Assembly: GCA_003213115.1 (NCBI GenBank)
Contig: QCNU01000001.1
Coordinates: forward strand, 248,001 to 312,000
From: Pelagibacteraceae bacterium AG-426-L23
Lineage (GTDB): Bacteria > Pseudomonadota > Alphaproteobacteria > Pelagibacterales > Pelagibacteraceae
DNA length: 64,000 nt
Direction: 5' to 3'
Shown here: one piece after another, positions 58,285 through 61,237 of the stretch
Numbering within the stretch: position 1 is the stretch's first letter
How the letters are laid out: each line of letters starts with the position of its first letter
The notes under the pieces: model-generated
The model's database searches: none
What the model saw: the letters and a program-made list of their open reading frames with translations, nothing else
What the model was told of the DNA's origin: nothing
Made by a program: the position numbers and the translations under genes

Positions 58285-59763
58285 ATGAAATTATTTTTAA
58301 TTTTAGGCAATCATCTTTTTAACACAAAATATCTGAAAGAATACTCAGAGTTTACTTTTTATATGTCGGAAGATTATGGATTATGTACATTCCAAAAACA
58401 CCATAAATTAAAAATTCTTCTTTTTTTATCATCAATGAGGTCATACCGAGACGAACTAAGGGCAAAAAAAATAAAATTAATTTATAACGATTGCAATAAA
58501 GAATTTAAAACCCCATACGAAAAGAAACTTGAAAGAGTAATTAAAGAAAAAAAAATTAAAGAAGTAAACTTTTTTGAAATAGAGGATAAATTTTTTGAAA
58601 AAAGGTTAAAATTATTCTTATTAAAAAAGAAAATTAATTTTAAAGAAATTAAATCTCCAATGTTTTTAATGAATAGAGAAGAGTTTAAAAACTATCTTTC
58701 AAAAAATAAAAAACCTTTTATGGCTAACTTTTATAAAATTGTTCGTACAAAAATGAGTTTATTAATGAATAAAAATGGTACACCAAAAGGGAATAAATGG
58801 AGTTTTGATGAGGAAAATAGAAAAAAACTTCCTAATAGTATTAAAATTCCTGAAATTTCTAAAATAAAAGAGACAAAAGATACTTTAATACTTAAGAGAT
58901 TTATAAATTCTAATTTTAAAGACCATCCTGGAAATACAGATAAATTTTGGTTCCCAACAACAAGAAAAGATGCCAACAAATGGCTCGATGAGTTTTTAAA
59001 AGACAGAATAAAGTTATTTGGAGATTATGAAGATGCAGTAACAGATAAGTCTAACACAGTCTTTCATAGTGCCTTGAGTCCTTTGATAAACTTAGGATTA
59101 ATTACTCCAGAAGAAATAATCGAGAAGCTGAGAAAGATCGAGAATAAGATACCAATGAACTCTCTAGAGGGATACATAAGACAAATTATCGGTTGGAGAG
59201 AATTTATGAGAGGAATTTATCAAAATTATGATCAGAGATTAGAAAAAACTAATTTTTTTAATCACAAAAGAAAAATGAAAAAAACTTGGTATGAAGGTAC
59301 TACAGGTTTAGATCCCCTAGATCACGCAATAAACAATGCAAAAAACTATGGCTGGTCTCACCACATAGAGAGATTAATGATTTTAGCAAATATTATGAAC
59401 CTTTGTGAGATTAATCCAAAACAAGTTTACAAATGGTTTATGGAAATGTTTGTAGACTCATCTGATTGGGTTATGGCTCCTAATGTTTATGGAATGGGAT
59501 TATTTAGTGATGGTGGAATTTTTGCTACTAAACCTTATATCTGTGGATCAAGTTATTTTCTTAAAATGATGCATTTTAAGAAAGGACCTTGGTGTGATGT
59601 TATGGATGGTTTGTACTGGAAATTTATAGATAGACACAAGAAATTCTTTTTAAAAAATCCACGACTTTCAATGATGGTTAGAATTTCTGAAAAAATGAAT
59701 ATAGAAAGAAAGTCAAGAATTTTCAAAGCTGCTGAAAAATTTATAAAACAAAATACCATTTAA
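58285..59763 (+). CDS. Cryptochrome/photolyase-family protein (prokaryotic 6-4 / DPRP type)
   Basis: A 492-residue flavoprotein-type photolyase. LFLILGNHLF at the N-terminus is the opening of the 'photolyase-related' alpha/beta domain (about 1-150). The FAD domain contains YIRQIIGWREFMRGIY near residue 297, HHIERLMILANIMNLCEI near residue 359 and DWVMAPNVYGMGLFSDGGIFATKPYICGSSYFLKMMHF near residue 394. Relatives repair (6-4) photoproducts and carry a 4Fe-4S cluster. Only Cys374, 420 and 437 fall in the C-terminal domain, so the canonical four-Cys set is not obvious. A DUF2256 gene follows by three bases. Confidence 0.88.
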   Translation: MKLFLILGNHLFNTKYLKEYSEFTFYMSEDYGLCTFQKHHKLKILLFLSSMRSYRDELRAKKIKLIYNDCNKEFKTPYEKKLERVIKEKKIKEVNFFEIEDKFFEKRLKLFLLKKKINFKEIKSPMFLMNREEFKNYLSKNKKPFMANFYKIVRTKMSLLMNKNGTPKGNKWSFDEENRKKLPNSIKIPEISKIKETKDTLILKRFINSNFKDHPGNTDKFWFPTTRKDANKWLDEFLKDRIKLFGDYEDAVTDKSNTVFHSALSPLINLGLITPEEIIEKLRKIENKIPMNSLEGYIRQIIGWREFMRGIYQNYDQRLEKTNFFNHKRKMKKTWYEGTTGLDPLDHAINNAKNYGWSHHIERLMILANIMNLCEINPKQVYKWFMEMFVDSSDWVMAPNVYGMGLFSDGGIFATKPYICGSSYFLKMMHFKKGPWCDVMDGLYWKFIDRHKKFFLKNPRLSMMVRISEKMNIERKSRIFKAAEKFIKQNTI

Positions 59764-59766
59764 AAA

Positions 59767-59898
59767 GTGATTAAAAAATTTAATCTTCCAAAAAAAAACT
59801 GTGCAGTTTGTAACAAAGCTTTTGCTTGGAGAAAAAAATGGAGACTCAATTGGGAAAAAGTAAAGTATTGTTCTAAGAAGTGTGCAGGATTAAAATAA
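59767..59898 (+). CDS. DUF2256 zinc-ribbon-like small protein
   Basis: A 43-residue frame with GTG start at 59767 and TAA at 59896-59898. The order KNCAVCNKAFAWRKKWRLNWEKVKYCSKKC is the DUF2256 signature: two CxxC-type pairs (C12-x2-C15 and C35-x3-C39) flanking FxWRKKW, suggesting a bound zinc. Small DUF2256 proteins usually neighbour photolyase-family genes, as here, but their role is unknown. It starts three bases after the photolyase gene and ends two bases before the convergent FAD-domain gene. Confidence 0.85.
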   Translation: MIKKFNLPKKNCAVCNKAFAWRKKWRLNWEKVKYCSKKCAGLK

Positions 59899-59900
59899 TT

Positions 59901-61037
59901 TTATTGCAAATTAAAGTTAGTTATAATTTTAGGAATATTATTTTTAAAATTAAAAAATCCTTTGCTTGAGAATTGCCAAGAGAATCTATCTTCATCTCTT
60001 AAAATAAAGTTTAATTTTAAGTTACGTGTCTTTTCAATATTATTTAAGTAAGAATAGTTTTCACCTATACAAGGATATATCACATCAAAATATTTAACTT
60101 TTTCTATCAATGTTTGAAATTTTGTCTCATCATATATTTGTATTTGATTAAATCTTTTTTTTTGATCATTAATCATTTTTAATTTGAATTCGAATACTCT
60201 TTTTTCAAGTTTTATTTTTCGAACATCATTACTTAATAAAATTAAATAAATATTTTTATAATCTTTTAATTTTCTATTTTCTAAATTTAATTCGTTTTCA
60301 AAAACAATTAAGTTTTCATTAGAATTGTCCTCAAAGTTCAAACTTAATGGAGTCATTTTATAATCTCTTACATCTGCTAAAGGAGAAACTTTTTCGTTAA
60401 GTTTTACATCTTTATACTTATTATTTGTAAACTTATTTATATTCCAAGACTGAGCGACATAATGTTTACCCTTAGTTTGAAGTCCCGCAACCCATCTCCA
60501 ACTTAGAGTATTAGATGCTGCATCACCATCCAGTAAATTTTTTATAAAAAACTCAGCTCCTTTTTGCCATGGTAAATTTAAAGTAAATATCCAAATGCTA
60601 GCAAACCACATTCTTGTATGATTATGTAAATAATTATTTTCTTTAAGTTCTTCAACCCAATCATTAAAACATTTAATTTGAGTTTCACCGTTTATAGCTT
60701 TTTTATAACTGTCATCTTCATTAATACCTTTTAAATCCCCAGTAAAATCTGACCATACTTTTGGTCTAAGCTCTAACCAACCCTTCCAATAAATTCTCCA
60801 GAAAATTTCTTGTATAAATTTGTCAACTTTTTGAAATGGATGTTTTAATAAAACTTTTTTAACAGCTTCATACTCTGTTATTAAGCGATGAGTAATATAA
60901 GGAGATAGGCAAGAAACATTATTTCTATTTTTAATGCCAAAGTCAAAATTTCTTTTTGAGTTATAATTTAAAATATCGTTTTCTATAAAACTATTTAATT
61001 TATTTAAAGCACTGGATCTAGATGTTTCAAAATTCAT
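59901..61037 (-). CDS. Photolyase FAD-domain protein with an extra C-terminal alpha/beta domain
   Basis: A 378-residue protein. Residues 1-225 match the photolyase FAD-binding domain: NVSCLSPYITHRLI, FWRIYWKGWLE, HNHTRMWFASIWIFTLNLPWQKGAEFF and GDAASNTLSWRWVAGLQTKGKHYVAQSWNI. The usual N-terminal antenna domain is absent. Instead residues about 240-378 show alternating strands and helices (NLIVFENEL, NIYLILLSND, FDVIYPCIGENYSYL), which might be that domain moved to the C-terminus. Whether it repairs DNA or senses light is not evident. Its start overlaps the upstream small membrane gene by one base. Confidence 0.8.
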   Translation of the reverse strand: MNFETSRSSALNKLNSFIENDILNYNSKRNFDFGIKNRNNVSCLSPYITHRLITEYEAVKKVLLKHPFQKVDKFIQEIFWRIYWKGWLELRPKVWSDFTGDLKGINEDDSYKKAINGETQIKCFNDWVEELKENNYLHNHTRMWFASIWIFTLNLPWQKGAEFFIKNLLDGDAASNTLSWRWVAGLQTKGKHYVAQSWNINKFTNNKYKDVKLNEKVSPLADVRDYKMTPLSLNFEDNSNENLIVFENELNLENRKLKDYKNIYLILLSNDVRKIKLEKRVFEFKLKMINDQKKRFNQIQIYDETKFQTLIEKVKYFDVIYPCIGENYSYLNNIEKTRNLKLNFILRDEDRFSWQFSSKGFFNFKNNIPKIITNFNLQ

Positions 61038-61237
61038 TAATCTTCGTCATCTCTCCATCCATCGATGTACAACTTCCAACATGCAAATGTTACACACGGT
61101 ATACCTACACAAAAGCCTAATAATATTCCGTTATCTCTTCCAAGATAGAATGAACCTATTTGCGTTGAGAGAATAGGCGGCACACAAAGTATTAGTACAA
61201 TAATTAATAATCTTGTAACAAAGCTAGGTCTTTTCAT
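61037..61237 (-). CDS. Small hypothetical membrane protein
   Basis: A 66-residue protein with two hydrophobic helices (about 8-25 and 36-54) and an acidic C-terminus (GWRDDED). GRDNGILLGFCVGIPCVTFACW is the only notable patch, with three cysteines. I do not recognise a family. The TAATG overlap with the photolyase FAD gene suggests co-expression. The coding assignment rests on this coupling and the clean start. Confidence 0.6.
   Translation of the reverse strand: MKRPSFVTRLLIIVLILCVPPILSTQIGSFYLGRDNGILLGFCVGIPCVTFACWKLYIDGWRDDED

Follow-up and report, generated by a model that had tools for sequence, protein, structure and literature searches.

The window studied here (the whole stretch of 64,000 nucleotides from Pelagibacteraceae bacterium AG-426-L23) carries on its minus strand a photolyase gene in which the FAD domain comes first and an alpha/beta domain follows, an order that raises the question of what this second domain is and whether the arrangement is new. 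Our main reading, to which we give a probability of about 75% on the strength of sequence comparison and structure models, is that 59901..61037 encodes a SAR11 CPD photolyase of the NewPHL type, having behind its FAD domain a divergent antenna-type domain that most likely docks on the FAD domain and closes its pocket, and is probably pigment-free.

Gene and domain layout

The gene (59901..61037, minus strand; 378 aa) was defined by its open reading frame, Pfam, genome comparison and AlphaFold2; the frame starts with the ATG at 61037-61035 and has no internal stops. Pfam placed FAD_binding_7 (PF03441) at residues 74-196 (E 2.7e-15), covering positions 1-128 of the 203 of the family model; no other family was above cut-off in the 378-aa protein, and the antenna families PF00875 and PF04244 gave no match either before or after the FAD domain. 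With the FAD domain starting at residue 1, the layout is not that of classes I/III, where an N-terminal PF00875 domain is joined to a full FAD_binding_7.

The AlphaFold2 model of the whole protein (22 sequences; mean pLDDT 89.6, pTM 0.90) shows helices at residues 7-203, a linker, and then strands and helices alternating over residues 242-372. Three parts can thus be delimited on the minus strand: an N-terminal FAD/catalytic domain (residues 1-203, 60429..61037), recognized by PF03441, VIA-align and the conserved FAD and lesion residues; a linker (residues 204-240, 60318..60428) modeled without secondary structure; and a C-terminal antenna-like alpha/beta domain corresponding to the Z-domain of NewPHL (residues 241-378, 59904..60317), identified from the model, VIA-align and hhalign. 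The helical half superimposes on the FAD domain of photolyase 1iqr (VIA-align Z 16.2, 211 residues, rmsd 2.7), and by sequence the class III photolyase 4u63 is the nearest solved relative (profile E 2.2e-20), the alignment being limited to residues 7-185. The FAD domain is therefore homologous to that of the class I/III CPD photolyases (4u63, 1owl, 1dnp), which, unlike the SAR11 protein, have an N-terminal antenna domain, a longer FAD domain and a Trp triad.

The protein is a photolyase with inverted domain order, a shortened FAD domain first and an alpha/beta domain second, as the sequence-only reading had proposed. A circular permutation, also proposed there, is ruled out in its plain form since the FAD domain is shortened.

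A known inverted class

The other suggestion, a new domain pairing, is overtaken by the literature, where inverted-topology photolyases are already in print. NewPHLs from Dinoroseobacter shibae (A8LJA9) and Methylobacterium mesophilicum (M7YZC8; both accessions as given in PMC13274461) are reported as inverted-topology CPD photolyases acting on ssDNA (Emmerich et al. 2020, doi 10.1093/nar/gkaa1147), and PMC13274461 treats NewPHLs and SPLs as one class of ssDNA CPD repair enzymes with inverted topology; a Trp dyad is described for the D. shibae protein (PMC8948257) and a conserved asparagine near flavin N5 for NewPHL (PMC12083526). Set beside the type proteins by these reported features, the SAR11 protein agrees in having the FAD domain first, a second domain at the C-terminus, a Trp dyad and the N5 asparagine. 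Ruegeria sp. TM1040, host of a full-length relative of the same plan (34.6% identity over 99% of the query), belongs to the same family, Roseobacteraceae, as D. shibae.

In picocyanobacteria, Prochlorococcus Phr7 consists of an N-terminal FAD domain and a C-terminal Z-domain according to Haney et al. 2022 (PMC9426592), who also present Synechococcus Phr4/Phr5 and Cyanobium Phr6 as photolyases whose domains stand in reversed order; a Synechococcus photolyase split over two genes had been noted in 2012 (PMC3441193). Judged by description, the SAR11 protein is like Phr7 in its domain plan, marine host and lack of conserved linker cysteines, Phr7 being characterized in PMC9426592 as devoid of Fe-S cysteines. 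With Phr4/Phr5 and Phr6, as described, it shares a FAD domain placed first and a photolyase (antenna) domain placed second, in one or two genes; however, those proteins are reported to have Fe-S cysteines and a recognized photolyase domain, whereas the SAR11 protein has neither. The short photolyase-like proteins, SPL (Xu et al. 2021, doi 10.1093/molbev/msab191; PMC9649867, PMC9178010, PMC9498864), by description also start with the FAD domain and have no N-terminal alpha/beta domain; many alphaproteobacterial relatives (L153, L154, L156-L159; 244-303 aa) are without the C-terminal domain and fall in another tree group.

The SAR11 gene is a well-conserved member of the inverted class described in 2020, and no new invention. 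Among titles in the open-licence literature we found no work on a NewPHL-type protein in SAR11; checked for priority against that same literature, what is added here is the link between the Z-domain and antenna domains, the split and fused forms of Deinococcus, the pairing with a PhrB-type photolyase in SAR11 and a subclade that yielded no class I photolyase.

Distribution and conservation

Some match at E <= 0.001 was obtained in 87 of 101 genomes of the window's order. Fifty had a strong match to the NewPHL protein, (nearly) full-length in 48 and partial in 2 (G026, G051), at 52-77% identity with the window itself excluded; the remaining 37 showed weaker matches only, nearly all to other photolyases. 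As the same ORF recurs in those 50 genomes and in more distant Alphaproteobacteria, a frameshift or mis-assembly fusing two genes was rejected, and the inverted order is not an assembly accident.

The C-terminal domain was present in 28 of 385 alphaproteobacterial genomes; a phylum sample of 299 genomes yielded it in 12, every one of them alphaproteobacterial (the window's own genome is included in both counts). All 36 alphaproteobacterial ORFs gathered by their C-terminal domain (36 genomes) have the FAD domain ahead of it in the same ORF. In a tree of FAD domains, for which the program flags long branches (L188, L189 and the class I outgroup), the long inverted proteins form one group (100/99) apart from the short relatives and the Deinococcus relatives. 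Of the 570 loci in a named-genome scan, the best 80 all bear Pelagibacter-type names, and one viral-contig scan (13 pattern matches) gave no viral relatives. An unusual photolyase class is hereby extended to SAR11, a group that ranks with the most abundant life forms of the ocean's sunlit layer.

A 340-codon frame in another genome (G093 C4:49501-49767) matches query residues 286-373 at 25% identity (E 4.7e-4); no FAD part is reported for it, and the match may be due to chance, or the frame may encode a relative of the C-terminal domain on its own.

Identity of the C-terminal domain

Residues 225-378 folded alone gave pLDDT 86.9 and pTM 0.78 (37 sequences). When the C-terminal domain was compared with known structures by VIA-align, rows 1-12 were all photolyase or cryptochrome chains (Z 8.8-6.7, 104-139 residues, most over 131-139), the matches running via the antenna domains from about residue 2, with the last aligned residues extending past the antenna domain in several rows. 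The best non-photolyase rows were Can2 (Z 6.7) and Usp (Z 6.6), so that the lower photolyase rows are tied with others; the antenna fold is found for residues 241-378 at a Z near 8, which is moderate.

Profile comparisons were made with hhalign, using a tail profile of 73 rows (51 after filtering). The tail scored 34.9 (P 6e-5) with PhrB-type antenna domains and 35.5 (P 2.8e-5) with the C-terminal domain of the Deinococcus relatives, while column-shuffled targets with the tail as query reached a maximum of 21.7 in 40 trials per pair. Its score against the class I antenna was weak (21.9, P 0.0083; best shuffle 20.1). For reference, class I and PhrB-type antennas, both accepted antenna families, score 35.2 against each other, and the Deinococcus C-terminal domain against the class I antenna scores 58.8 (P 2.2e-9); judged by these profiles, the tie between tail and PhrB antenna appears about as strong as that between class I and PhrB antennas. 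The clear signal came from the larger alignments only (the 73-row tail set): smaller ones gave nothing against the SAR11 class I antenna (prob 0.4) or against mostly SAR11 PhrB-type domains (prob 0.9), and P 0.0086 against Deinococcus C-terminal domains. No antenna family was among the 25 Pfam families listed for the 37 members of the tail alignment, and a PDB sequence search with that alignment returned 3 matches, no photolyase among them.

The same data bear on the possibility that the domain is a member of the HUP-like fold, as are PPAT and universal stress proteins, recruited independently and not descended from an antenna. Foldseek would agree with this, putting PPAT first (E 8.5e-4) and the best photolyase at rank 13, and the antenna profiles themselves score 33-37 against Usp (class I 37.2, Deinococcus 33.4), for which reason hhalign scores near 35 cannot by themselves single out an antenna. 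The tail, however, does not behave like those profiles: with control alignments of 10 and 13 sequences it reaches just 13.8 for Usp and 12.9 for PPAT, and it reaches 14.2 for SDR, as opposed to its 34.9 with PhrB-type antennas, and the VIA-align rows above are headed exclusively by photolyases and cryptochromes, most of them over 131-139 residues. We thus regard independent recruitment as unlikely, and from profiles and models we take the C-terminal domain to be of antenna type, divergent and closest to that of PhrB. Comparison with photolyase antenna domains was what the sequence-only reading had recommended for residues 240-378; the domain being antenna-like in fold and profile, the unrelated fold that had been set beforehand as a refutation did not emerge.

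Active site, mechanism and substrate

Residues were numbered after E. coli photolyase through an alignment with 1dnp, conservation was counted in 47 aligned rows, and aligned positions are presumed to have the roles of the E. coli FAD- and lesion-site residues. E77, W80, R81, N139, R142, M143, D170, D172 and N176 (E. coli E274, W277, R278, N341, R344, M345, D372, D374 and N378) are identical in 47/47 rows, N176 being the asparagine at flavin N5, and W182 (W384) is conserved in 46/47. The inner and middle tryptophans of the electron chain, W180 (W382) and W157 (W359), are also found in 47/47 rows; the outer one, W306, lies within an insertion and has no matching Trp, leaving a Trp dyad, and W95 (44/47 rows) lies elsewhere in the alignment. 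Arginine 342 of CPD photolyases is replaced by His in 46/47 rows. As for Fe-S cysteines, Cys occurs in at most 3 of the 47 rows in each column of residues 195-244.

Within the C-terminal domain, columns of at least 85% identity amount to 8 of 22 in residues 349-370 (59928..59993, minus strand), compared with 1 of 82 in residues 241-322 and 1 of 26 in residues 323-348. With conservation concentrated in it, the first of these segments, where D350, W354, G360, F362, K365, I368 and P369 are conserved, would more readily suit docking or sealing than the holding of a pigment. In NewPHL, the C-terminal domain reportedly seals the FAD site.

In the mechanism that we propose, the N-terminal domain would bind FAD and repair cyclobutane pyrimidine dimers, light-excited FADH- passing an electron to the dimer, which W80, W182, N139 and M143 would hold in place, and FAD would be photoreduced through the dyad W180-W157. 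The C-terminal domain would dock on the FAD domain via residues 349-370, closing the FAD pocket, and probably has no conserved antenna pigment now. We infer CPDs as substrate, pocket sealing and pigment loss, and, by analogy with the published class, a preference for single strands.

Two other functions were weighed against this scheme. The C-terminal domain could still be a light-harvesting antenna, with lumazine, deazaflavin, folate or flavin feeding energy to FAD, which would be in line with its fold and profile link to PhrB-type antennas and with the Deinococcus relatives, which keep a domain resembling PF00875 below cut-off (L165: E 7.2e-4 for the whole protein, 5.5e-5 for the C-terminal domain alone); but in 241-322, the half where antenna pockets mostly lie, only 1 of 82 columns is conserved at 85% or more, and we find it improbable that a pigment is still held. 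That the protein is a photoreceptor, or repairs a lesion other than CPDs, seems to us very improbable: the His in place of R342 and the conserved pairing with a PhrB-type photolyase speak for it, while the remaining lesion-site positions carry the CPD photolyase residues.

Neighborhood and photolyase complement in SAR11

Both neighbors named by the sequence-only reading were found by Pfam on the plus strand: a 492-aa PhrB-type (DPRP) photolyase at 58285..59763 (PF04244, E 4.7e-53; PF03441, E 3.5e-8) and a 43-aa DUF2256 gene with a GTG start at 59767..59898 (PF10013, E 4.3e-17). The NewPHL gene is convergent with the PhrB-type gene and the DUF2256 gene lies between them. Among the named loci (the best 80 of 570), a PhrB-type homologue was present on the fetched DNA in 53 (in 50, if only the 71 loci that extend 2.9 kb or more downstream are counted), and an ad hoc pattern picked up a DUF2256-like motif in 61.

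The two photolyase genes lie no more than about 2 kb apart on one contig in 20/20 genomes, 15 of them picked for showing no second photolyase in the 101-genome scan and 5 taken for comparison; FAD_binding_7 proteins number only two in the 15 and three in the 5. A rule that NewPHL carriers have no class I photolyase was rejected, since 30 of 45 genus members with NewPHL show a second photolyase match in the 101-genome scan. Seven two-photolyase genomes form a supported clade (100/99), and no class I photolyase was found in that SAR11 subclade; the other absences are scattered and, the genomes being incomplete, mean little. In the window's own genome (84% complete) PF00875 was not found and NewPHL and the PhrB-type protein are the only FAD_binding_7 proteins, which is only suggestive of a class I absence. 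Should some SAR11 lineages have NewPHL as their sole CPD photolyase, the ssDNA preference reported for it becomes testable against biological need.

The PhrB-type neighbor (58285-59763) is probably a (6-4) photolyase. Fe-S (6-4) photolyases have a CxxC-type cysteine motif, whose cysteines the neighbor apparently lacks; it may belong to the forms without Fe-S, like Prochlorococcus PromaPL.

Upstream lies a small, 66-aa membrane-protein-like ORF (61037-61237, minus strand) without a Pfam family above cut-off, whose stop codon overlaps the NewPHL start codon by one base (TAATG); many SAR11 relatives have a homologue in this position.

Deinococcus forms and origin

On three Deinococcus plasmids the FAD domain is followed by the domain like PF00875 mentioned above. 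Four of the five Deinococcus C-terminal domains aligned matched PF00875 at E <= 10, and a PDB sequence search with one Deinococcus tail gave no match at E <= 1. On plasmid NZ_CP097153.1 of Deinococcus sp. QL22 (L188:1860-3151) a 257-aa FAD-domain gene overlaps by 4 bases a 173-aa gene for a 'hypothetical protein' resembling an antenna domain; by sequence resemblance, the pair amounts to a two-gene photolyase with the FAD half first. By description, Phr4/Phr5 and Phr6 appear to resemble the Deinococcus forms (L165, L186-L188) more than they do the SAR11 protein.

A wider reading, which we hold as possible but short of probable, takes the Z-domain of NewPHL to be a relocated photolyase antenna: NewPHL, the cyanobacterial reversed-order proteins and the Deinococcus forms would derive from one two-gene ancestor, a FAD gene followed by an antenna gene as in Deinococcus sp. 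QL22; the antenna would have become a pigment-free lid, pigment loss and lid role being placed in the alphaproteobacterial line; and NewPHL would be the sole CPD photolyase of the SAR11 subclade, a role at odds with strict single-strand specificity. Should the C-terminal domain indeed be a relocated antenna, it would inform the question of how photolyases acquired their two-domain build.

Outside SAR11, another alphaproteobacterium (L198:775-3462) has a FAD-first photolyase gene followed by a PhrB-type gene with a 4-base overlap, so the pairing is not confined to SAR11. A plasmid of the Bacteroidota member Persicobacter psychrovividus (L189; NZ_AP025293.1, 1962-3071) carries an unannotated FAD-first photolyase relative with a C-terminal domain of its own.
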